In this document: positions 46,569 to 57,420 of the stretch, piece after piece
Numbering within the stretch: position 1 is the first letter of the stretch
Layout: every line of letters begins with the position of its first letter
Source: Pelomonas sp. Root405
GTDB lineage: Bacteria; Pseudomonadota; Gammaproteobacteria; Burkholderiales; Burkholderiaceae_C
Length of the DNA: 64,000 bases
Reading direction: 5' to 3'
Assembly: GCF_001425165.1 (NCBI RefSeq)
Contig: NZ_LMDU01000015.1
Coordinates: 62,001 to 126,000 of the forward strand
Made by a program: the position numbers and the translations under genes
Notes under the pieces: generated by a model
What the model was told of the DNA's origin: nothing
Database searches by the model: none
The model's input: the letters and a program-made list of their open reading frames with translations, nothing else

Positions 46569-47285
46569 ATGGCCGACGCACCACTGCCTTTGCGCCAACG
46601 CGCGCGCCGGCCGACGCCGGCTGAACTCGATGCCATTCCCTGGCTCAAGCTGCTCGAAGGCGGTCAGCGCGAACTGGCCGTCAGCACGCTGGAGGTGGCC
46701 GACGCCGAGCCGGGTGAACGCCTGTGCCGCATCGGCCGGCCGGCGACCTTCTGGTTCGGCGTCGTCGACGGCCTGTTGAAGATGAACAACGACGACTCGC
46801 TGGGCCAGGCCGTCACCTTCACCGGCATCCCGCCGGGCGGCTGGTTCGGCGAGGGCACGCTGCTCAAGCGCGAGGTCTACCGCTACAACATCCAGGCCCT
46901 GCGGCCCAGCGCCGTAGCCGGCTTGCCTGTCGACAGCTTCCACGCGCTGCTGGACGGCAGCATTGCCTTCAACCGCTTCGTGCTGAATCAGCTCAACGAG
47001 CGGCTCGGCCAGTTCATCGCTGCGCGCGAGACCGACCGCATCCATGACCCCGACATGCGCGTGGCCCGCAACCTGGCCGCCCTCTTCCACCCGACGCTCT
47101 ACCCAGGCGTGGGCAGCTGGCTGCGCATCACGCAGGAGGAGCTGGGCTACCTCGTCGGCCTGTCACGCCAGCGCGTCAACCAGGCGCTGCACCGCTTGAG
47201 CGACGCACGCCTGATCCGCATCGAGTACGGCGGTTTGCGGGTGCTCGACCTGCAGGGCCTCAGGCGCTTCCCCGCATTGCCCTGA
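46569..47285 (+). CDS. Crp/Fnr-family transcriptional regulator
   Basis: This 238-residue regulator has an N-terminal cyclic-nucleotide-binding-like beta-roll (about 30-145, with PPGGWFGEGTLL), a dimer helix and a C-terminal winged helix (about 165-235: ITQEELGYLVGLSRQRVNQALHRLSDARLIR). It lacks the FNR-type N-terminal Cys cluster. It is divergent from the liv-ligase operon, which it probably controls. The 3' end overlaps the convergent dauA-like gene by 26 bp. Confidence 0.9.
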   Translation: MADAPLPLRQRARRPTPAELDAIPWLKLLEGGQRELAVSTLEVADAEPGERLCRIGRPATFWFGVVDGLLKMNNDDSLGQAVTFTGIPPGGWFGEGTLLKREVYRYNIQALRPSAVAGLPVDSFHALLDGSIAFNRFVLNQLNERLGQFIAARETDRIHDPDMRVARNLAALFHPTLYPGVGSWLRITQEELGYLVGLSRQRVNQALHRLSDARLIRIEYGGLRVLDLQGLRRFPALP

Positions 47286-48426
47286 AACGTTGCGGGGACA
47301 GGTCTTGCGCGGAGATGCCCATGTCGGCCAGGTCCTGCGGCAGCGCGCGGGCGAGCGTCAGCGCGGCGGCGGCGCGGCCGAGGGCCGGCGAGGTCTGGAT
47401 GCCGTAGCCGCCCTGGCCGGCGCACCAGAAGAAGCCCGGCGCTGCTACATCGAAGCCCACGACGGGTGAGCGGTCGGGGCTGAACACGCGAAGCCCTGCC
47501 CAGCTGTGGCGCACGCGGCGCACGGACTGGCCGGTCAATGTCTCGAAGCGGTCGACAGCGATGGCGATATCCAGCTCTTCGGGCTGCGCATCGCACGGCG
47601 GGCTGGGCGTTTCGTCGGCCGCCGAGATCAGCAGCAAGCCGGCATCGGGCTTGAAGTACTGGCTCTCGTCGATGGCAACGACCGCCGGCCACTGTGAGGC
47701 GTCCACGCCGTCCGGCAGGTCAATCAGCACGGCGGTTCGGCGCAGCGGCTGCAGCGGCACCGGCGCCAGGCCCGCGAGTGCGGCGACGTCATCGGCCCAG
47801 GCGCCCGCCGCATTGATGACGATGCCGGCGCGGAAGCTGCCGGTGGCCGTGTGGGCCAGCCAGCCGTCGCCCTCGCGCTCCAGCGCCTGCAGCCCGGCAC
47901 CCAGGTGCAGCTGAGCCCCTGCGGCGCGTGCCTGGCGCAGGAAGCCCTGATGCAGCAGGTCGACGTCGATGTCGGCGGAAGTTGCGTCCAGCAGCGCGCC
48001 GGCAATGCGCTCGCGCTGCAGCAAGGGCACCCGGGCCAGCACCTCGTCGGCGCTCAGGGCCGAGGTGCGCTCGCGAACGTCGGCATCGGCCGTGAAGCCC
48101 TCGACCAGGCCCTCCTGCCCAGCGCCGACGAGAAAGAGCGTGTGCCGCTCGCGCAGCAGCGCCTGCTTGACCATGCCTTGCGACGGCGTCCTGAAGTAGC
48201 CGAGGCTGGCGCGCGTCAGCGCGCGGATCGTCGCGTTGCCATAGAGCGCCGAGTACAGCGCGGCCGAGCGGCCCGTCGAGTGGTAGCCCGCCTGGGCCTC
48301 GGCTTCCAGCAGCGCCACACTCGCCTCACCCGCCAGCGCCGCCGCCACGGACACACCCGCGATGCCCGCACCGATGACGATGCAGTCCACATTCTTCGTT
48401 GTCGCTTGACCCACGGGTAGATGCAT
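47260..48426 (-). CDS. FAD-dependent D-amino acid dehydrogenase, DauA-like
   Basis: This 388-residue flavoenzyme of the DAO family has N-terminal dinucleotide-binding VIGAGIAGVSVAAAL, then GYHSTGRSAALYSALYGN and a C-terminal WAGLRVFSPDRSPVVGF and GGYGIQTSPALGRAAA. From memory these segments line up closely with Pseudomonas aeruginosa D-arginine dehydrogenase (DauA), which deaminates many D-amino acids. It is cytosolic or membrane-associated. It is divergent from the POT transporter gene with a shared operator; a 5'-UTR of about 16 nt is predicted. I infer a role in oxidising D-amino acids released from imported peptides. Confidence 0.84.
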   Translation of the reverse strand: MHLPVGQATTKNVDCIVIGAGIAGVSVAAALAGEASVALLEAEAQAGYHSTGRSAALYSALYGNATIRALTRASLGYFRTPSQGMVKQALLRERHTLFLVGAGQEGLVEGFTADADVRERTSALSADEVLARVPLLQRERIAGALLDATSADIDVDLLHQGFLRQARAAGAQLHLGAGLQALEREGDGWLAHTATGSFRAGIVINAAGAWADDVAALAGLAPVPLQPLRRTAVLIDLPDGVDASQWPAVVAIDESQYFKPDAGLLLISAADETPSPPCDAQPEELDIAIAVDRFETLTGQSVRRVRHSWAGLRVFSPDRSPVVGFDVAAPGFFWCAGQGGYGIQTSPALGRAAAALTLARALPQDLADMGISAQDLSPQRFRAMRGSA

Positions 48427-48430
48427 GTAG

Positions 48431-48445
48431 TTTCCAATTTGGAAA
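48431..48445. promoter_or_regulatory. Operator 1 of the peptide locus (TTTCCAATTTGGAAA)
   Basis: A 15-bp dyad has perfect 7-bp arms around one central base. It lies 5-19 bp before the dauA-like start. It covers the predicted start of that gene's promoter (TTGCTC 48477-48472, 17 bp, TACATT 48454-48449) and the -35-like TTGGAA (48439-48444) of the divergent transporter gene. It is the likely site of the XRE-cupin regulator. Confidence 0.72.
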
Positions 48446-48518
48446 ATAAATGTACCATCACGAAAAATGTTGAGCAACGCTGAAATCTACCGCCTGGCGC
48501 AGCCCTGAGGAGAACCCC

Positions 48519-49820
48519 GTGGACGCTTCCCTGCACCCCGCATCGCATTCCCGCCCGACGGCCCAGTGGTTCGGCCAGCCGCGCGGCCTGGTGGTGCTCT
48601 TCCTGACCGAGATGTGGGAGAAGTTTTCCTTCTTCGGCATGAAGGCGCTGTTGATCTATTACATGATCCGGCACCTGCAGTTCGCGCAAGCCGATGCATC
48701 GCTGATCTACGGCGCCTACGCGGGCGGCGTCTACCTCACACCCATCTTCGGCGGCTACATCGCAGACCGTTGGCTGGGCCGGCGCCGCGCCATCCTCATC
48801 GGCGGCGCGTTGATGGCACTCGGGCATTTCACGCTGGCTTTCGAGTCGGCCTTCTTCCCGGCGCTGGTGCTGATCGCCCTGGGCAACGGCCTGTTCCTGC
48901 CCAGCCTGCCCAGCCAGGTGGGCGACCTCTATGACGAGGCCGACCCGCGTCGCGGCGGCTCGTACAACATCTACTACGTCGGCGTGAACCTCGGCGCGCT
49001 GCTGGCGCCGCTGGTGTGCGGCACGCTGGGCGAGGTCTACGGCTGGCATGTGGGCTTCGGCGCGGCAGGCATCGGCATGTGCATCGGCCTGGCCATCTAT
49101 GTGCTGGGTGGGCGCCACCTGCCGCCAGACCGGCCGCGCGCGGCAGAACCCGCCAGCGCCCGGCCCGCCAAGCTGTCGAGCGGCGCCTTCGTGCCGCTGC
49201 TGCTGGTGGGTCTGGCGGTTGTCGTTTTCCGCGCCGGCTACGAGCAGAGCGGCAACACGTTGGCCGTCTGGGCCGAAACCAGCGTCGACCGCGTGGCCTG
49301 GGGCATGACGGTGCCCGTCACCTGGATGCAGTCGCTCAACCCGCTGTTGGTTTTCCTGTTCACACCTTTCGTCGTGGCCGGCTGGCGGCGCGCGGCGCAG
49401 CGCGGGCGCGAGCCCTCGTCGCTGGCCAAGATGGCCCTGGGCGCGGCCGGCGTGGCGCTGGCCTATCTGATGCTTGCGCTGCTGGCCGCTTCGCATGGCA
49501 GTGCGCCGGTCAGCATGGCGTGGGTGGGCGCCTTCTTTGTGGTCTACACGCTGGCGGAGCTGTACATCCTGCCGGTGGGGCTGGGCCTGTTCGCGCGCCT
49601 TGCGCCCGCCGGCATGGGCGCGACCATCATCGCGGCCTGGTTCCTGGCCTCCTTCGGCGGCAACCTGCTGTCGGGCGTGGTGGGGCGCTACATGGCTCCG
49701 CTGGGCGCTGCGGGCTTCTTCGCGCTGCTGGCCGGCATCACCGGGGCCGCCGCGCTGGCGCTGTTCGCGCTGCGGCCGCTTCTGCGCCGCGTCGAGGCCC
49801 CGATGGCTAACGCGGCGTAA
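48519..49820 (+). CDS. POT/PTR2-family proton-peptide symporter
   Basis: This 433-residue inner-membrane transporter has about 12 helices and belongs to the proton-coupled oligopeptide family (as DtpA or MlrD). The POT signature ExxE(R/K) appears in TM1 as EMWEKFSFFGMKALLIYYM, and GGYIADRWLGRRRAILIGG is the conserved loop. GYEQSGNTLAVWAE is the TM7 motif. The start is GTG 48519 with GGAG upstream. It probably imports di- to oligopeptides made by the periplasmic hydrolase of this locus. The 3' end overlaps the convergent regulator gene by 14 bp. Confidence 0.9.
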   Translation: MDASLHPASHSRPTAQWFGQPRGLVVLFLTEMWEKFSFFGMKALLIYYMIRHLQFAQADASLIYGAYAGGVYLTPIFGGYIADRWLGRRRAILIGGALMALGHFTLAFESAFFPALVLIALGNGLFLPSLPSQVGDLYDEADPRRGGSYNIYYVGVNLGALLAPLVCGTLGEVYGWHVGFGAAGIGMCIGLAIYVLGGRHLPPDRPRAAEPASARPAKLSSGAFVPLLLVGLAVVVFRAGYEQSGNTLAVWAETSVDRVAWGMTVPVTWMQSLNPLLVFLFTPFVVAGWRRAAQRGREPSSLAKMALGAAGVALAYLMLALLAASHGSAPVSMAWVGAFFVVYTLAELYILPVGLGLFARLAPAGMGATIIAAWFLASFGGNLLSGVVGRYMAPLGAAGFFALLAGITGAAALALFALRPLLRRVEAPMANAA

Positions 49821-50538
49821 CCCTGGGCTTGGCCTTGGGCTGCGGCTTGAAGGCCCGCGCCGCCTTGGCGGGGGCCGCGGGCTTTGTCGCCGGCGCGGCC
49901 AGGCGCTGCGAGGCCTCGACGAAGTGCTGGGTCATCTCGTCCTGGCCATTGCGCGGCGCGCAGGTCGCGACCAGCCGGCAGGTACCTTCGGACGCCTTCA
50001 GGTAGGCGTGGCCCATCTCGCTGTCGAAGAAGATGGAGTCGCCAGGCTTCAGCGTGACGGGCGCATACAGCTCGGAGTGGAAGGCGACTTCGCCCTCGAT
50101 GACGAAGGCGAACTCCTCGCCCGGGTGGCGGATCAGGTCGCCGAACTCCGCCTTGAACTCCTCCAGCGTGCGCGCCCGCACCTCGGCGATCAGCGGCGTG
50201 AAGCGCTTGTTGAGCAGCTCGGACGCGAGGTACGTCTGCTTGTAGCTCTGCGTGTCGACCACCTGCCCCTCGCCCGCGCGGTGCACCACGCGCCGGCCGC
50301 CGCCGCTGGGCGCGGGGCGGGCGCCCTGGGTGTCGTGCAGCAGTTCGGCCATGTCCACGCCGAGGCCGCGGCTCAGCAGCATCAGCTTGTCGTAGGACAG
50401 CGAGACATTGCCTTTTTCCAATTTGGACAACGTTGAAACCGCCAGGCCGGTGCGCTCGCCCACCTGGCTCAAGGTCAGGCCGAGCCGCTTGCGGATGCCG
50501 CGGATGTGTTCGCCGGGAGTGATGGGGGAAGTGGCCAT
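49807..50538 (-). CDS. XRE-cupin transcriptional regulator
   Basis: This 243-residue regulator combines an XRE helix-turn-helix (about 10-65: IRGIRKRLGLTLSQVGERTGLAVSTLSKLEKGN) and a C-terminal cupin (about 125-205: HPGEEFAFVIEGEVAFHSE, LKPGDSIFFDSEMGHAY). This PuuR/SutR-like type usually senses a small amine or amino acid. The tail is Ala/Pro/Lys-rich. It lies between the POT and TonB-receptor genes. A near-perfect copy of the locus operator is embedded in its own helix-turn-helix codons, suggesting autoregulation. Confidence 0.9.
   Translation of the reverse strand: MATSPITPGEHIRGIRKRLGLTLSQVGERTGLAVSTLSKLEKGNVSLSYDKLMLLSRGLGVDMAELLHDTQGARPAPSGGGRRVVHRAGEGQVVDTQSYKQTYLASELLNKRFTPLIAEVRARTLEEFKAEFGDLIRHPGEEFAFVIEGEVAFHSELYAPVTLKPGDSIFFDSEMGHAYLKASEGTCRLVATCAPRNGQDEMTQHFVEASQRLAAPATKPAAPAKAARAFKPQPKAKPRVTPR
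50415..50429. promoter_or_regulatory. Operator 3, inside the XRE-cupin regulator gene
   Basis: TTTCCAATTTGGACA matches operator 1 at 14 of 15 bases. It overlaps codons of the recognition helix (LSKLEKGN) about 110 bp into the gene. The TTG and AAA codons that create it are unusual in this GC-rich gene, which favours selection over chance. Confidence 0.5.
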
Positions 50539-50653
50539 TTCGCTGGGGGAAGTGCGATTCGATCTTAGGTCACGGCCTGCAGAGGGCCGCCCTCTCGCTT
50601 GCCCCTAGACCGGCTTGTCATTACATCTAAGGTTTACACCAATGGGAAAGATT

Positions 50654-50668
50654 TTTCCAAAATGGAAA
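50654..50668. promoter_or_regulatory. Operator 2, upstream of the TonB receptor gene
   Basis: TTTCCAAAATGGAAA has 6-bp arms with a 3-bp centre and matches operator 1 at 13 of 15 bases. It lies 44-58 bp before the receptor start. A -35-like TTTACA (50633-50638) sits upstream, and the likely -10 (CAAAAT, 50658-50663) is inside the operator. An overlapping GGAAA/TTTCC dyad extends to 50645. Confidence 0.68.
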
Positions 50669-50711
50669 CTTCATTCATCAAACAACCCAAACCTCTGACT
50701 CAGGAGATGCC

Positions 50712-52970
<2,259 letters not shown>

Positions 52971-52983
52971 CCCGGGAACCCGC

Positions 52984-54948
52984 ATGAAGACCCTGCTCAC
53001 CCGCCTGCATGCGCTGGCCCTGGCGCTGGCCGTGGCGGCGCCCGCTTGGGCCCAGACCGGGCCCGCGCCCGCCCTGACGCCACCGGCCGCGGTCACTGCG
53101 CCCGATGCCACCACGGCCAAGCCGACGCCCAAGGCGGGCGTCGCGTTGACCGCCGCCGATGCCGAAGCCTTCATCGACGGCTTGATGCCCACGGCGCTGC
53201 GCACCGCGCGCGTGCCGGGCGCCGTGGTCGTCCTCGTCAAGGACGGCCAGCCGCTGCTGCAGAAGGGTTATGGCTATGCCGACTGGGACAAGCACCTGCC
53301 CGTCGACCCGCAGAAGACGTTGTTCCGCCCCGGCTCGGTGTCCAAGCTGTTCACGTGGACGGCCGTCATGCAGCTCGTCGAGCAGGGCAAGCTGGACCTG
53401 GACGCGGACCTGAACAAGTACCTCGACTTCACGATCCCGGGCCGCAACGGCAAGGCGCTGACGCTGCGCCACGTGCTGACGCACACGACCGGCTTCGAAG
53501 AGACGGCGCGGGACCTACTGACCTACACGCCCGCCACGCCTGACCTCGGCAAGGTGCTCAAGGGCTATATCCCGCCGTACGTCTACGACCCCGGCACGAC
53601 GCCCGGCTACTCCAACTACGCCACCGCGCTGGCCGGCTACATCGTGCAGCGCGCCAGCGGCAAGTCCTTCGACGACTACATGGACCAGCAGGTTTTTGGA
53701 CCGCTGGGCATGAAGCAGTCCACCTTCCGCCAGCCGCTGCCGCCGGCGCTAGAGCCGCAGATGTCGCAGGGCTACATGACCTGGGACGAGAAGCCCAAGG
53801 GCTTCGAGATCATCAGCATGCCGCCGGCCGGCAGCATGTCGGCGCCAGGCAGCGACATGGGCCGCTTCATGCTGGCCATGCTGCAGCAGGGCCAGCTGGG
53901 CGGGGCGCAGATCCTCAAGCCCGAAACGGTCAAGCAGATGTTCGGCCAGCTGACGCGGCCGCTGCCTGCACTCTCGGGCATCGGCCTGGGCTTCTACGAA
54001 CAGAACATCAACGGCCGCCGCGTGCTGGCGCATGGTGGCGACACGGTGCTCTTCCACAGCGACCTGCTCCTGTTCGTGGACGACGGCATCGGCCTGTATG
54101 TGTCGGTCAATGGAGCCGGGCACGAGCGCCAGGGCGCCTGGTTGCGCGACAAGCTGTTCGAGGCCTTCGCCGATCGCTATTTGCCCGATGCCCGCCCGGC
54201 CACCAAGCCCGAAGTGGACGAGGCCACGGCCAAGCAGCATGCGCAGCAGATGGCCGGCGCCTACCGCAACACGCGCCGCGAGGACTCGACCTGGCTGTCG
54301 GTGCTGCAGCTACTGAGCCCGCTGAAGGTACAGGCGCTGGAGGACGGCCGCCTGAGCATTGACCTGGCCGGCGCACGCAGCACCTACCGTGAAGTGAAGC
54401 CCTATCTGTGGGAGGAGGAGCATGGCAAACGCCGGCTGCAGGCCGCGGTGGAGAACGGCAAGGTCAAGCACTGGGGACTGGAGCCCTTCGTCTTCGCCTT
54501 CATCTTCGAGCCGGTGCCCTTCATGGCCAGCCCGACGGTGCTGGTGCTGGCGGGCCTGGCCATCGTCACGCTGCTGTTGACGGCGCTGTTGTGGCCGGTC
54601 GCCGCGGTGCTGCGCCGCCGTCACCACGTGGCTGTCGCACCGCCCAAGCAAGTGACGTGGGTGCGCGGCGCCAGCGTGCTGGCCTTGGTGGCACTGGGCC
54701 TGTGGGGCTGGGTCGTGGCGCTGCTGGAAAGCCTGGGCGATGCGTCGCTGCTGCTGCCCATCGCGCAGCTGACGCTGGCCGGGTCGGTCATCGGCGGCCT
54801 GATCGTGGCAGGCCTGCATGCTCGCAGCGCGTTGAAGGTCGGCGACAAATGGGGCAAGGCGCTCGCCATCGTCTGGCTGCTGGCCTTCGCCGTCCTGCTG
54901 GTCGTGGCGCTGTACCACCACCTGATTGGCTTCAACCAGAACTATTGA
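52984..54948 (+). CDS. Beta-lactamase-fold serine hydrolase with C-terminal membrane domain
   Basis: This 654-residue exported enzyme has a Sec signal (ending APAWAQ). The penicillin-recognising fold (about 60-390) has nucleophile Ser118 in SVSK (SxxK), YSN (YxN motif) in TPGYSNYA and HGG in RVLAHGGDT. After an alpha/beta spacer, about four membrane helices (about 515-645) anchor it. This catalytic type includes D-aminopeptidases, class C beta-lactamases and MlrB of microcystin degradation. It lies 13 bp after the receptor gene and 12 bp before the M81 gene. I infer hydrolysis of D-residue-containing peptides in the periplasm. Confidence 0.85.
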   Translation: MKTLLTRLHALALALAVAAPAWAQTGPAPALTPPAAVTAPDATTAKPTPKAGVALTAADAEAFIDGLMPTALRTARVPGAVVVLVKDGQPLLQKGYGYADWDKHLPVDPQKTLFRPGSVSKLFTWTAVMQLVEQGKLDLDADLNKYLDFTIPGRNGKALTLRHVLTHTTGFEETARDLLTYTPATPDLGKVLKGYIPPYVYDPGTTPGYSNYATALAGYIVQRASGKSFDDYMDQQVFGPLGMKQSTFRQPLPPALEPQMSQGYMTWDEKPKGFEIISMPPAGSMSAPGSDMGRFMLAMLQQGQLGGAQILKPETVKQMFGQLTRPLPALSGIGLGFYEQNINGRRVLAHGGDTVLFHSDLLLFVDDGIGLYVSVNGAGHERQGAWLRDKLFEAFADRYLPDARPATKPEVDEATAKQHAQQMAGAYRNTRREDSTWLSVLQLLSPLKVQALEDGRLSIDLAGARSTYREVKPYLWEEEHGKRRLQAAVENGKVKHWGLEPFVFAFIFEPVPFMASPTVLVLAGLAIVTLLLTALLWPVAAVLRRRHHVAVAPPKQVTWVRGASVLALVALGLWGWVVALLESLGDASLLLPIAQLTLAGSVIGGLIVAGLHARSALKVGDKWGKALAIVWLLAFAVLLVVALYHHLIGFNQNY

Positions 54949-54960
54949 AGCAGGCGCGAC

Positions 54961-56451
54961 ATGAGACTCTTCCTCGGCGGGCTGGTGCACGAGACCAGCA
55001 GCTTCTCGCCACTGCCGACCAGCGTGCAGTCCTTCCGCGACGGCGTGCTGATCCACCGCAGCGATGCTCGCGCGCTGCAGCAGCTGGTGGCCCAGCCCAA
55101 CCTGGTCGGTGTCATCGCCGCCGCGGCGCGCCAGGGCGACACGCTGCTGCCGGGGCTGTACGCCGAGGCGCAGCCATCCGGGCCGCTGTCGCGCGCCGAC
55201 TACGAGCGGCTGCGCGACGAATTGCTGGCCGACCTGCAGGCAACCCTCAGCCTGGGCGCGGTCGACGCCGTGCTGCTGGTGCTGCACGGCGCCATGCTGG
55301 CTGAGGGCTACCCCGACTGCGAGGGTGACCTGCTGGTGCGCGTGCGCGAGCTGGTCGGGCCGCGCGTGCCGCTGGGCGCGCTGCTGGACTTGCACTGCAA
55401 CCTGAGCCCGTCGATGGTCGAGTCAGGCGCCGTGCTGGTGGCATGCAAGGAGTACCCGCACATCGACTACGCCGCCCGCGGCGAGGAGCTGCACGCGATG
55501 CTCGGCGCGATGGCGCGCGGCGAGCTGGCGGTCCGTGCGCAATGGCGTCGCGTGCCCATGCTGGGCATCTTCGGCACGACGCAGCCGCCGATGCGCGACT
55601 TCGTGCAACAGCTGCAGGCCAGCGAACAGACGGTGCCGGGCGTGCTGTCGGTGTCAGCGCTGCACGGCTTTCCGTGGTCGGACACGCCGCACACGAGTGC
55701 GGCTGTGCTGGTGCTGTCACAGGACACGCCGGCCGCGGCCAAGGCCGCCACGCAGCTGCTTGGCGAACTCGCCGAAACTTTCTATGGCCTGCGTGAGCGC
55801 GCCGCCGCCAACCGCCTGCCGTTGCACTTGGCGCTGGACGAGGCGGTGGCCGCCATGCAACAGGCCCAGGGCCGTCCGGTCGTGCTGGCCGACACGGCGG
55901 ACAACGCCGGCGGCGGTGCGGCGGGCGACAGCACCTTCGTGCTGCGTGCGCTGCTGGAGCGCGGCATCCAGGAGGTCGCGCTCGGCATGATCTGGGACCC
56001 GCAGGCGGTGGCCATCGCGACGTCGGCCGGCGTCGGCGCGCGGCTGCCGCTGCGCATCGGCGGCAAGGTCGGGCCGATGTCGGGCGACCCCGTGGACCTG
56101 GAAGTGGAGGTGCTGGCCTGCCGCGCCGACGCGCGGCAGCGCAGCCTGACGCCGGGTGGCACCGACCCGCTGGGCGCCGCCGTGGCAGTGCGCGCGCAGG
56201 GCATCGAGATCGTGCTCAACAGCATCCGCCAGCAGGTGTTCTCGCCGGCGTGCTTCACGGAACTGGGCATCGACCCCGCGGCCAAGCGACTGGTTGTCGT
56301 CAAGTCGACGCAGCACTTCCGTTCGGGATTCGATGCGATGGCGGCGGCGGTCGTGTACGCAGACACGCCGGGCAGCCTGGCGTCCGACCTGGGCCGGCTG
56401 CCCTACCGGTATCTGCCTCGGCCGGTCTGGCCGCTGGACAGGGCCTGTTAA
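54961..56451 (+). CDS. M81-family metallopeptidase (MlrC family)
   Basis: This 496-residue protein has no signal peptide, so it is presumably cytosolic. M81 metal-site segments are visible: LLDLHCNLSPSM (Asp143, His145), KEYPHIDYAARG and DTADNAGGGAAGDSTFVLRALLE, all hallmarks of the MlrC/DUF1485 group. MlrC cleaves linear microcystin fragments; most M81 members have unknown substrates. It is last of the receptor-hydrolase-peptidase run. Its stop codon TAA lies inside the left terminal repeat of the 267-bp element, so the last residues (DRAC) may have been changed by that insertion. Confidence 0.87.
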   Translation: MRLFLGGLVHETSSFSPLPTSVQSFRDGVLIHRSDARALQQLVAQPNLVGVIAAAARQGDTLLPGLYAEAQPSGPLSRADYERLRDELLADLQATLSLGAVDAVLLVLHGAMLAEGYPDCEGDLLVRVRELVGPRVPLGALLDLHCNLSPSMVESGAVLVACKEYPHIDYAARGEELHAMLGAMARGELAVRAQWRRVPMLGIFGTTQPPMRDFVQQLQASEQTVPGVLSVSALHGFPWSDTPHTSAAVLVLSQDTPAAAKAATQLLGELAETFYGLRERAAANRLPLHLALDEAVAAMQQAQGRPVVLADTADNAGGGAAGDSTFVLRALLERGIQEVALGMIWDPQAVAIATSAGVGARLPLRIGGKVGPMSGDPVDLEVEVLACRADARQRSLTPGGTDPLGAAVAVRAQGIEIVLNSIRQQVFSPACFTELGIDPAAKRLVVVKSTQHFRSGFDAMAAAVVYADTPGSLASDLGRLPYRYLPRPVWPLDRAC

Positions 56452-56706
56452 CACGACGGCAATGGATCGCGAAGGCCTGCCGCCAGGGGCCAATCAAGGC
56501 GCGACACGCCGCCCGGACTGATGTGCGGGCAAGTGGCGCAACGCCGAGTGGCCCCTGGCGGCAGACCTTCCCTTCGGGTTGCGGCCAGAAAGGCCGCGCG
56601 CGGCGTTGCAAATGCTCGCCGGGTGTCCAACCCTGCTCCGCTCTGCGCCTTGCTCGCGGGCTTTCTGGCCACAACGCGACCCGTTGCCGTCGTGTTAACA
56701 GGCCCT
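56440..56706. repeat. 267-bp terminal-inverted-repeat element without coding capacity
   Basis: Perfect 23-bp ends, AGGGCCTGTTAACACGACGG plus CAA (56440-56462) and its reverse complement (56684-56706), bound a 267-bp segment. Inside are further inverted pairs: one built on CTGCCGCCAGGGGCCA, one on GGCCAGAAAG. There is no transposase gene. It separates the convergent M81 and GNAT genes and supplies both their stop codons. A MITE-like or large REP-type element, possibly also a bidirectional terminator, is the best description. A partial diverged copy lies at 57421-57532. Confidence 0.82.
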
Positions 56707-57313
56707 AGGCCGCGAAGGCGATCGCTTCGGGCTCGCAGCGCGGCAACGTCGCCCAACGGCTGGCGCTCAGTTCGTACAGCAGAGCTGCGGCGCTGCCCGG
56801 CCCGTCGGCGAGGCTGCCCTTGAGGCGCAAGCCCAGGCACTCCAGCGTCTTGCGCGTGGGGGCGTTGCTGGGCAGCACGGCGGCAACGACGGAGGATTCG
56901 CGGTGCTGCTCGAACGCCTGCGTGAACGCGTATTGCGCCATTTCGGACGCCAGGCCGCGGCCCCAGGCCTGGGGCGTGATGCGGTAGTAAAGATAGAGGC
57001 CCACATGGCCGGCCACGCTGCGGTGCATGAGCCCGCCAAAGCCGATCAAGCTGTCGGGCTGATCACGTTCGGCGATGGCCCAGTGACCGAAGCCGCGCGC
57101 CTGCCAATGGTTGATCCACGTCTGCAGCTGGGCTTCGGTGGCCGCGCGGCCGTGCGGCGTGGCCGCGGCGCAAAAGCGGTTCACCGCTGGATCGGCATTC
57201 AAGCCGGTCAGGATATCCAGATCGCTGTCCCGGGGCGGGCGCAGCACCAAGCGGCGGGTGACCATGGCGGCCGGAACGGCGGCGACGGGCTCACTAAACT
57301 CACTCTGGACCAT
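56705..57313 (-). CDS. GNAT-family acetyltransferase (RimJ/RimL-like)
   Basis: This 202-residue acetyltransferase has TRRLVLRPPRDSDLDILTGLN at the start of the domain, GFGHWAIAERDQPDSLIGFGG, and the acetyl-CoA site YYRITPQAWGRGLASEMAQYAF, as in RimJ/RimL-type enzymes. The target is unknown. ATG 57313 is likely, with ATG 57265 (MVTRRLV) as an alternative. Its TAG stop overlaps the end of the 267-bp repeat element by 2 bp. It is flanked on both sides by repeat sequence. Confidence 0.85.
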   Translation of the reverse strand: MVQSEFSEPVAAVPAAMVTRRLVLRPPRDSDLDILTGLNADPAVNRFCAAATPHGRAATEAQLQTWINHWQARGFGHWAIAERDQPDSLIGFGGLMHRSVAGHVGLYLYYRITPQAWGRGLASEMAQYAFTQAFEQHRESSVVAAVLPSNAPTRKTLECLGLRLKGSLADGPGSAAALLYELSASRWATLPRCEPEAIAFAA

Positions 57314-57420
57314 GTAGCTCACAGAACTCGGTAAAAACCCTAGCAGGGTATCCGTGTACTGCCCGCGACGGAAGCCCGGGGGCAAGGGTTTGTCGCAAAA
57401 CCGTCACAAACCCACAGCGT

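Follow-up and report, generated by a model that had tools for sequence, protein, structure and literature searches.

A conserved six-gene locus of Pelomonas sp. Root405, probably for D-amino-acid-containing peptides, and a clue to the role of M81 peptidases

The locus described here lies in a 64,000-nucleotide stretch of the Pelomonas sp. Root405 genome (assembly GCF_001425165.1, contig NZ_LMDU01000015.1, positions 62,001 to 126,000; hereafter the window) and encodes a DauA-like D-amino-acid dehydrogenase, a POT-family transporter, an XRE-cupin regulator, a TonB-dependent receptor, a membrane-anchored S12 serine hydrolase and an M81 zinc peptidase (Table 1). Judging from its sequence, this locus is probably an XRE-cupin-controlled regulon for the uptake and catabolism of small D-amino-acid-containing peptides. 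The six genes form a real, conserved unit, most likely for D-residue peptides, in which known parts appear in a new combination. They also give a hint of the part played by M81 enzymes family-wide. By sequence comparison, the locus shares ancestry with parts of the microcystin (mlr) pathway, without being that pathway.

The same six genes were found in the same order in Pelomonas sp. Root1217 (L068), a Roseateles metagenome-assembled genome (MAG; L069), R. violae (L070) and another genome of the same family (L033, where the dehydrogenase gene is cut by the contig end), and all six were present, rearranged, in Scleromatobacter humisilvae (L112) and a Rhizomicrobium MAG (L124); hence the search for this gene set in other genomes, proposed when the window was read from its sequence alone, was answered positively. 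Root1217 was the nearest named relative among the loci compared; across the six proteins, the best-matching segments were 80-91% identical. Among eight block loci, the four flanking genes tested stood beside the block only in L068, and therefore the block stays together in differing surroundings. Two genomes of the same genus, within a sample of 200 genomes of the window's family (Burkholderiaceae_C), had no M81 match.

Both divergent promoter regions of the locus share one palindrome. The pattern TTTCCANNNTGGAAA occurs at exactly two places in the 5.81-Mb genome (18 contigs), one in each of these regions, and its reversed control pattern at zero places in the whole genome; with one mismatch allowed, nine places were found, three of them within the locus. 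Both putative operators are present at 0-1 mismatch in L068, L069, L070 and L033. The intragenic third copy is also found in L068, L069 (where it is perfect) and L070, and not in L033, and may be retained for the coding sequence. Furthermore, the regulator (P0003) unites an XRE helix-turn-helix (HTH) and a cupin domain with a palindrome in the adjacent intergenic region, the combination by which a local regulator is recognized. In Pseudomonas aeruginosa, XRE-cupin regulators inhibit transcription, with at least one binding region next to the regulator's own gene and, for most, one or two neighboring targets; three of their motifs were determined, all palindromic and different from one another (PMC7901475). 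In Pseudomonas putida, one regulator of this class represses a D-amino-acid oxidase operon (PMC12724383). Since both divergent promoters share one palindrome, the locus is probably jointly controlled as one regulon, with P0003 as the protein that would bind the putative operators; the lack of co-regulation earlier named as an outcome contrary to the D-peptide proposal is thus answered, at the level of sequence, in favor of a single regulon.

The six families named by the sequence-only reading were all recovered at their places by profile scans (Pfam and NCBIfam). The receptor, hydrolase and M81 genes, all on the + strand, are separated by gaps of 13 and 12 base pairs (bp), the 3' ends of the transporter and regulator genes overlap by 14 bp, and the divergent intervals measure 92 bp from the probable dehydrogenase start (ATG 48426) to the transporter start and 173 bp from the regulator start to the receptor start; a promoter scan of both intergenic regions found no site. 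The block is flanked by genes for a Crp-family regulator (46569-47285) and a GNAT acetyltransferase (56705-57385), and its G+C content is 69.5%, compared with 67.3% in the rest of the window.

Table 1. Features of the six-gene locus, in window coordinates
Feature	Position	Strand	Evidence or remark
DauA-like D-amino-acid dehydrogenase dependent on flavin adenine dinucleotide (FAD) (P0001)	47260..48426	-	PF01266; 306 bits to DauA 3nyc
Palindrome TTTCCAATTTGGAAA, putative XRE-cupin operator 1	48431..48445	.	Between dehydrogenase and transporter
Short POT-family peptide transporter (P0002), groups with MlrD	48519..49820	+	GTG start; PF00854, TIGR00924
XRE-cupin transcription regulator (P0003), probable local repressor	49807..50538	-	HTH_3 and Cupin_2
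Third palindrome copy, one mismatch, within the regulator gene	50415..50429	.	Pattern search
Palindrome TTTCCAAAATGGAAA, putative operator 2	50654..50668	.	Between regulator and TonB receptor
TonB-dependent outer-membrane receptor, first of the receptor-hydrolase-M81 run	50712..52970	+	PF00593 and PF07715
Membrane-anchored, probably periplasmic S12 serine hydrolase (P0005)	52984..54948	+	PF00144; motifs, hydropathy
M81 zinc peptidase (P0006)	54961..56451	+	PF07364 and PF07171; 283 bits to MlrC 7ylq

The family-wide clue comes from the surroundings of M81 genes in the 200 family genomes, 57 of which had an M81 match. From 117 M81 places, 113 were counted (four of at most 84 bits were left out) and divided by score against P0006 into close (at least 329 bits) and distant (110-260 bits) ones. 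A DauA-like gene (at least 260 bits) lay within 10 kb of 22 of the 44 close places and of none of the 69 distant places, where 0.25 and 0.23 such neighbors, respectively, would be expected by uniform placement (Fisher test, 1.4e-11, relatedness ignored). On the M81 tree the dehydrogenase label needs 23 changes; therefore, the association does not go back to one inherited event, and the link has been made or lost many times.

Wider neighborhoods were compared in 36 close family loci (covering 43 of the 44 close places; the one omitted is the window's own), 20 distant loci (21 of the 69 distant places) and 80 named close-M81 loci (the best 80 of 565 relatives); family and named sets share some genomes, and six loci were left out as their genomes were already in the named set. 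At least one gene of the DauA-like, DadA, DgcA, DgcN or M55 type was present in 21/36 close, 1/20 distant and 34/80 named loci. DgcA was found in seven and DgcN in three of the close family loci; the named loci held DgcA (three), DgcN (two), M55 D-aminopeptidase family (five) and DadA-like (two) genes, and, as regards these four types, the distant loci had one DadA-like gene only. Moreover, S12 genes (23/36 close, 0/20 distant, 20/80 named), TonB receptors (22/36, 0/20 and 15/80) and XRE-cupin genes (9/36, 0/20 and 28/80) accompanied the close M81 genes. Family scans assigned the representatives of neighbors to SBP5, permeases, S12, Amidohydro_3, DadA-like and M55 D-aminopeptidase families, and those of DgcA and DgcN scored 417 bits (cut-off 400) and 448 bits (cut-off 480). 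In L040 and L147 (Stenotrophobium), which are rich sites for studying M81 function, two M81 genes stand together with S12 hydrolase genes, a DauA-like gene and DgcA/DgcN (one pair in L040, two pairs in L147); a TonB receptor and an MFS transporter are additionally encoded in L040. A class-A-beta-lactamase-like protein (L088:7615-8532) recurs in 5 of 110 M81 loci.

A second ending was observed in Sphingomonadales, where 15 transporters among 296 genomes scored 390-495 bits to P0002. Their loci (L222-L236) resemble the window locus in the transporter, a long P0005-like S12 hydrolase (15/15), an XRE-cupin gene (14/15) and a TonB receptor (14/15), whereas a DgcA/epimerase-like gene (15/15), accompanied by DgcN in 8/15, stands in place of the M81 and dehydrogenase genes, neither of which was found over threshold in any of the 15. 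In five weaker POT loci no S12, XRE-cupin or epimerase-like gene was present; a weak TonB-receptor match occurred in all five, and the receptor is therefore uninformative there. The epimerase-like proteins of three of the 15 loci and of L124 scored 325-372 bits on the DgcA model (cut-off 400) and 195-242 bits on the L-Ala-D/L-Glu epimerase model (cut-off 343). L124 itself carries both endings, M81 plus dehydrogenase and an epimerase-like gene. Perhaps the M81-dehydrogenase pair and the epimerase-like enzyme are alternative ways round the D-residue in an imported peptide. Two open reading frames of the Sphingomonadales loci (L224:4655-5818 and L231:10908-12134) had no Pfam match.

The dehydrogenase (P0001; PF01266, 179 bits) has P. 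aeruginosa DauA (3nyc, 306 bits) as its best solved relative, and shares with it the FAD fold, carboxylate-binding residues and Glu246 (R222, R305, Y53, Y249 and E246 are kept), whereas Glu87 and His48 of DauA are replaced by Thr and Leu. Among 40 unique M81-linked dehydrogenases, Arg222 is found in 39 (one gap), Arg305 in all 40 and Glu87 in none (one gap); the latter is also missing from all seven DauA-like rows not near M81, and its absence therefore does not single out the M81-linked enzymes. In DauA, the guanidinium of D-Arg is contacted by Glu87 as well as by Glu246, and the enzyme oxidizes all D-amino acids except D-Asp and D-Glu (PMC11193025). D-Arg, and with it the D-Arg dipeptides initially suggested as substrates, is disfavored because P0001, as well as all its unique M81-linked relatives, lacks Glu87, although the kept E246 leaves D-Arg possible; P0001 would rather be a D-amino-acid dehydrogenase for neutral side chains. 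The original dehydrogenase call thus stands at the level of the DauA-like family, but the gene probably starts at ATG 48426 and not at TTG 48477.

The peptidase (P0006) is composed of DUF1485 (265 bits) and MlrC_C (193 bits) domains, with no signal peptide seen by eye. Its zinc ligands E11, D143, H145 and H167 correspond to E39, D167, H169 and H191 of MlrC, and the four are present in 138-140 of 140 aligned M81 rows (P0006 and six Sphingomonadales rows included). Of the residues with a substrate role in MlrC (PMC9982164), D341 and S392 are kept, and W59, F67, F96, E70, N41, Q468, S485 and R492 are replaced by I, L, E, L, S, H, T and L, respectively; many of them also vary across the whole M81 subfamily. 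The proposed MlrC resemblance therefore holds for the subfamily and the zinc site, but not beyond: identity is 36%, most substrate residues are gone, and P0006 reaches 300.8 bits on NF041767 (cut-off 999), where MlrC of L150/L153 scores 1172. In the M81 tree (FastTree), MlrC nests inside the close set, and P0006 belongs to a separate supported set of 13. The nearest protein to true MlrC in this tree, about 50% identical to it, is the M81 enzyme of another genome of the window's family (L065:4475-5908, G062:C16), possibly, on sequence grounds, a source or cousin of MlrC. A plasmid search gave 492 records with M81, all below 60% identity.

The transporter (P0002) has a PTR2 domain (PF00854, 187 bits; TIGR00924, 300 bits, cut-off 130) and an ExxEKF motif at residue 31, the POT-family signature being ExxE[RK]F. 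It is 45% identical to MlrD over 420 amino acids, and a branch (99/96) separates P0002, 21 other transporters and MlrD from 18 other POTs, in a tree where MlrD sits on a long branch and from which five POTs were dropped (long-branch rows or rows beside them); for both the POT and the S12 trees, the comparison sets had been selected for their similarity to the window's proteins. The MlrD-type transporter that had been suggested was thereby confirmed, and the counterpart of MlrB was not. The hydrolase (P0005) shows the motifs SVSK (118-121), YSN (209) and HGG (350), without KTG; the third S12 motif is either HGG or KTG. It has a signal-peptide-like N-terminus by eye and four hydrophobic C-terminal stretches (about 510-651). 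Its score to MlrB is 57-58 bits, against 114-164 bits for 31 of 32 other S12 proteins of M81 loci (the S12b group; 57 bits in one short row), and it was rejected as an MlrB orthologue. In the S12 tree, for which rows below 280 residues and then two rows below 450 were dropped, the nearest rows of MlrB are S12b-like, with MlrB in no starred set; a modelling study placed MlrB nearest to a D-aminopeptidase structure (PMC11070527). The phylogeny that was called for gave a divided answer, as MlrC nests among the close M81 enzymes, but P0006 falls in a separate set and P0005 is not MlrB-like.

True MlrC was detected in 1 of 396 Sphingomonadales genomes (1172 bits), and its cluster was read as L153, where the MlrA, MlrB and MlrD labels rest on the order, length and family type described for mlr clusters. 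Like mlrBCD of Sphingomonadales, the window locus combines an S12 hydrolase, an M81 metallopeptidase and a short POT transporter; unlike it, the locus has a hydrolase of another S12 group and an M81 enzyme without most MlrC substrate residues, and its block holds a dehydrogenase, a TonB receptor and an XRE-cupin regulator. The Glu and Ala residues at the cleavage sites are D-residues in microcystin. MlrC cuts Adda-Glu and MlrB cuts Ala-Leu (PMC12474180). Direct membership in an mlr cluster was rejected in view of the MlrC score, the non-MlrB hydrolase and the changed substrate residues; linearised microcystin, previously offered as a substrate, is disfavored. Near mlrB, L153 encodes an Amidohydro_3-type protein (L153:892-2340; NF006560, 163 bits, below cut-off), and similar proteins occur near M81 elsewhere. 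The genome with this cluster (G383) also carries one of the POT/S12/epimerase-like loci (L223), with a second MlrD-group transporter.

In this context, the TonB receptor would carry an oligopeptide into the periplasm, where the membrane-anchored S12 hydrolase would cleave it at a D-residue, and the POT symporter would import the resulting di- or tripeptide. In the cytoplasm, the M81 zinc enzyme would hydrolyse the X-D-residue bond, and the DauA-like dehydrogenase would turn the released D-amino acid, which is probably neutral, into a keto acid and ammonia by oxidation. Repression of both promoter pairs by the XRE-cupin protein would be lifted once its cupin domain binds a ligand, probably a peptide or D-amino acid. 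Neighborhood, operator and active-site evidence support the D-peptide scavenging pathway of the sequence-only reading. Two of its substrates, D-Arg dipeptides and linearised microcystin, are disfavored, and the locus may instead serve other D-dipeptides, nonribosomal peptides or peptides from the cell wall. The dbu locus of P. putida is similar in having a divergent XRE-cupin regulator (DbuR), a D-amino-acid oxidising enzyme, a transporter and a palindromic operator, whereas it serves free D-amino acids (branched-chain), includes a Rid2 protein, has a different palindrome and, as described, contains no peptidase or TonB receptor in its operon (PMC12724383).

Several observations weigh against D-peptide scavenging as the function of the locus. 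Within 10 kb of half of the close M81 places (22/44), no DauA-like gene was found, and none over threshold in 50 of the 80 named loci, some of which are short. Conversely, a close M81 gene lies within 10 kb at just 18 of the 87 DauA-like places listed (at most nine candidates per genome were scored, and the weakest matches are not among them), and in five of seven DauA-like loci examined that are not near M81, the other genes searched were all missing; the dehydrogenase is therefore not tied to M81. An ABC peptide permease, rejected as a specific M81 neighbor, is no commoner near close (10/36) than near distant (4/20) M81 genes, and near the P0002-like transporter of L154, where the contig ends, a TonB receptor was all that was seen. 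The palindrome is absent from the Sphingomonadales loci, save for one copy with one mismatch, which does not lie at a place matching the operators. Finally, both S12 enzymes and TonB receptors cover a wide range of functions, and the receptor of the locus (Plug plus barrel) has its best matches, all weak, among solved siderophore receptors and NCBIfam models of siderophore and heme receptors, the latter all below cut-off.

An alternative that we regard as unlikely, yet weightier than those that follow it, is the scavenging of cell-wall material, in which the S12 enzyme would act on the D-Ala ends of peptidoglycan-derived peptides (L-Ala-D-Glu, D-Ala residues) and the M81 or epimerase-like enzyme on the D-residue dipeptide. 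The epimerase-like proteins checked (three of the 15 Sphingomonadales loci and L124) match both the DgcA (N-acetyl-D-Glu racemase) and the L-Ala-D/L-Glu epimerase models below their cut-offs, eight of the 15 loci carry DgcN, and S12 relatives include DD-carboxypeptidases. However, the Root405 genome has no DgcN match and only weak and partial DgcA matches, a D-glutamate route is accordingly not claimed for it, and cell-wall fragments of such size should not need a TonB receptor. Moreover, DauA itself is inactive on D-Glu (PMC11193025).

Detoxification of D-residue nonribosomal peptide antibiotics, with the S12 enzyme as a D-stereospecific resistance peptidase, is quite improbable. The structures 7uda and 7u1b, which we take to be ClbP, match P0005 weakly. 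An S12 domain followed by C-terminal membrane helices resembles ClbP, a D-specific peptidase (PMC9889268), and D-stereospecific peptidases hydrolysing such antibiotics are known (PMC9541196); on the other hand, the XRE-cupin regulator class is metabolic (PMC7901475), and a TonB receptor, an importer, a cytoplasmic peptidase and a dehydrogenase suit uptake and catabolism. Recycling of peptide siderophores, for which the receptor matches noted above would speak, is very improbable: by family none of the six genes is for siderophore synthesis or iron release, and the dehydrogenase and M81 enzyme are left without a clear part. Least credible of all is a pathway of the mlr kind acting on linearised microcystin, on nodularin or on further cyanobacterial peptides, which could call on the MlrD grouping of the transporter and the nesting of MlrC among close M81 enzymes, but conflicts with the non-MlrB hydrolase, with the loss of W59, F67, F96, E70, Q468 and R492 and the score of 301 against 999 bits of P0006, and, for what little it shows, with an MlrA search (protein from L153) that gave no match in the Root405 genome at E values up to 1 and had no positive control.

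In brief, D-amino-acid-containing peptides remain the favored substrates of this locus; molecules of this kind occur in long-lived organic matter and in many stable natural products. In the literature searched, by title and the start of the abstract and with partial coverage, M81 enzymes beyond MlrC are nearly undescribed, and none of the papers listed connected M81 to D-amino-acid catabolism or described this gene set. The subfamily-specific link to D-amino-acid genes gives these enzymes a testable general role and suggests where the transporter and peptidase of mlr may have come from; it also provides a regulon whose candidate operator is known exactly. With slightly less confidence than doubt, we suggest that the MlrC-containing M81 subfamily may at root consist of D-residue-specific peptidases across Proteobacteria and beyond, that the mlr pathway may have been assembled from parts of such scavenging loci, and that two interchangeable cytoplasmic endings, hydrolysis and oxidation by M81 plus dehydrogenase or epimerisation by a DgcA/epimerase-like enzyme, may follow the same S12 and POT front end.

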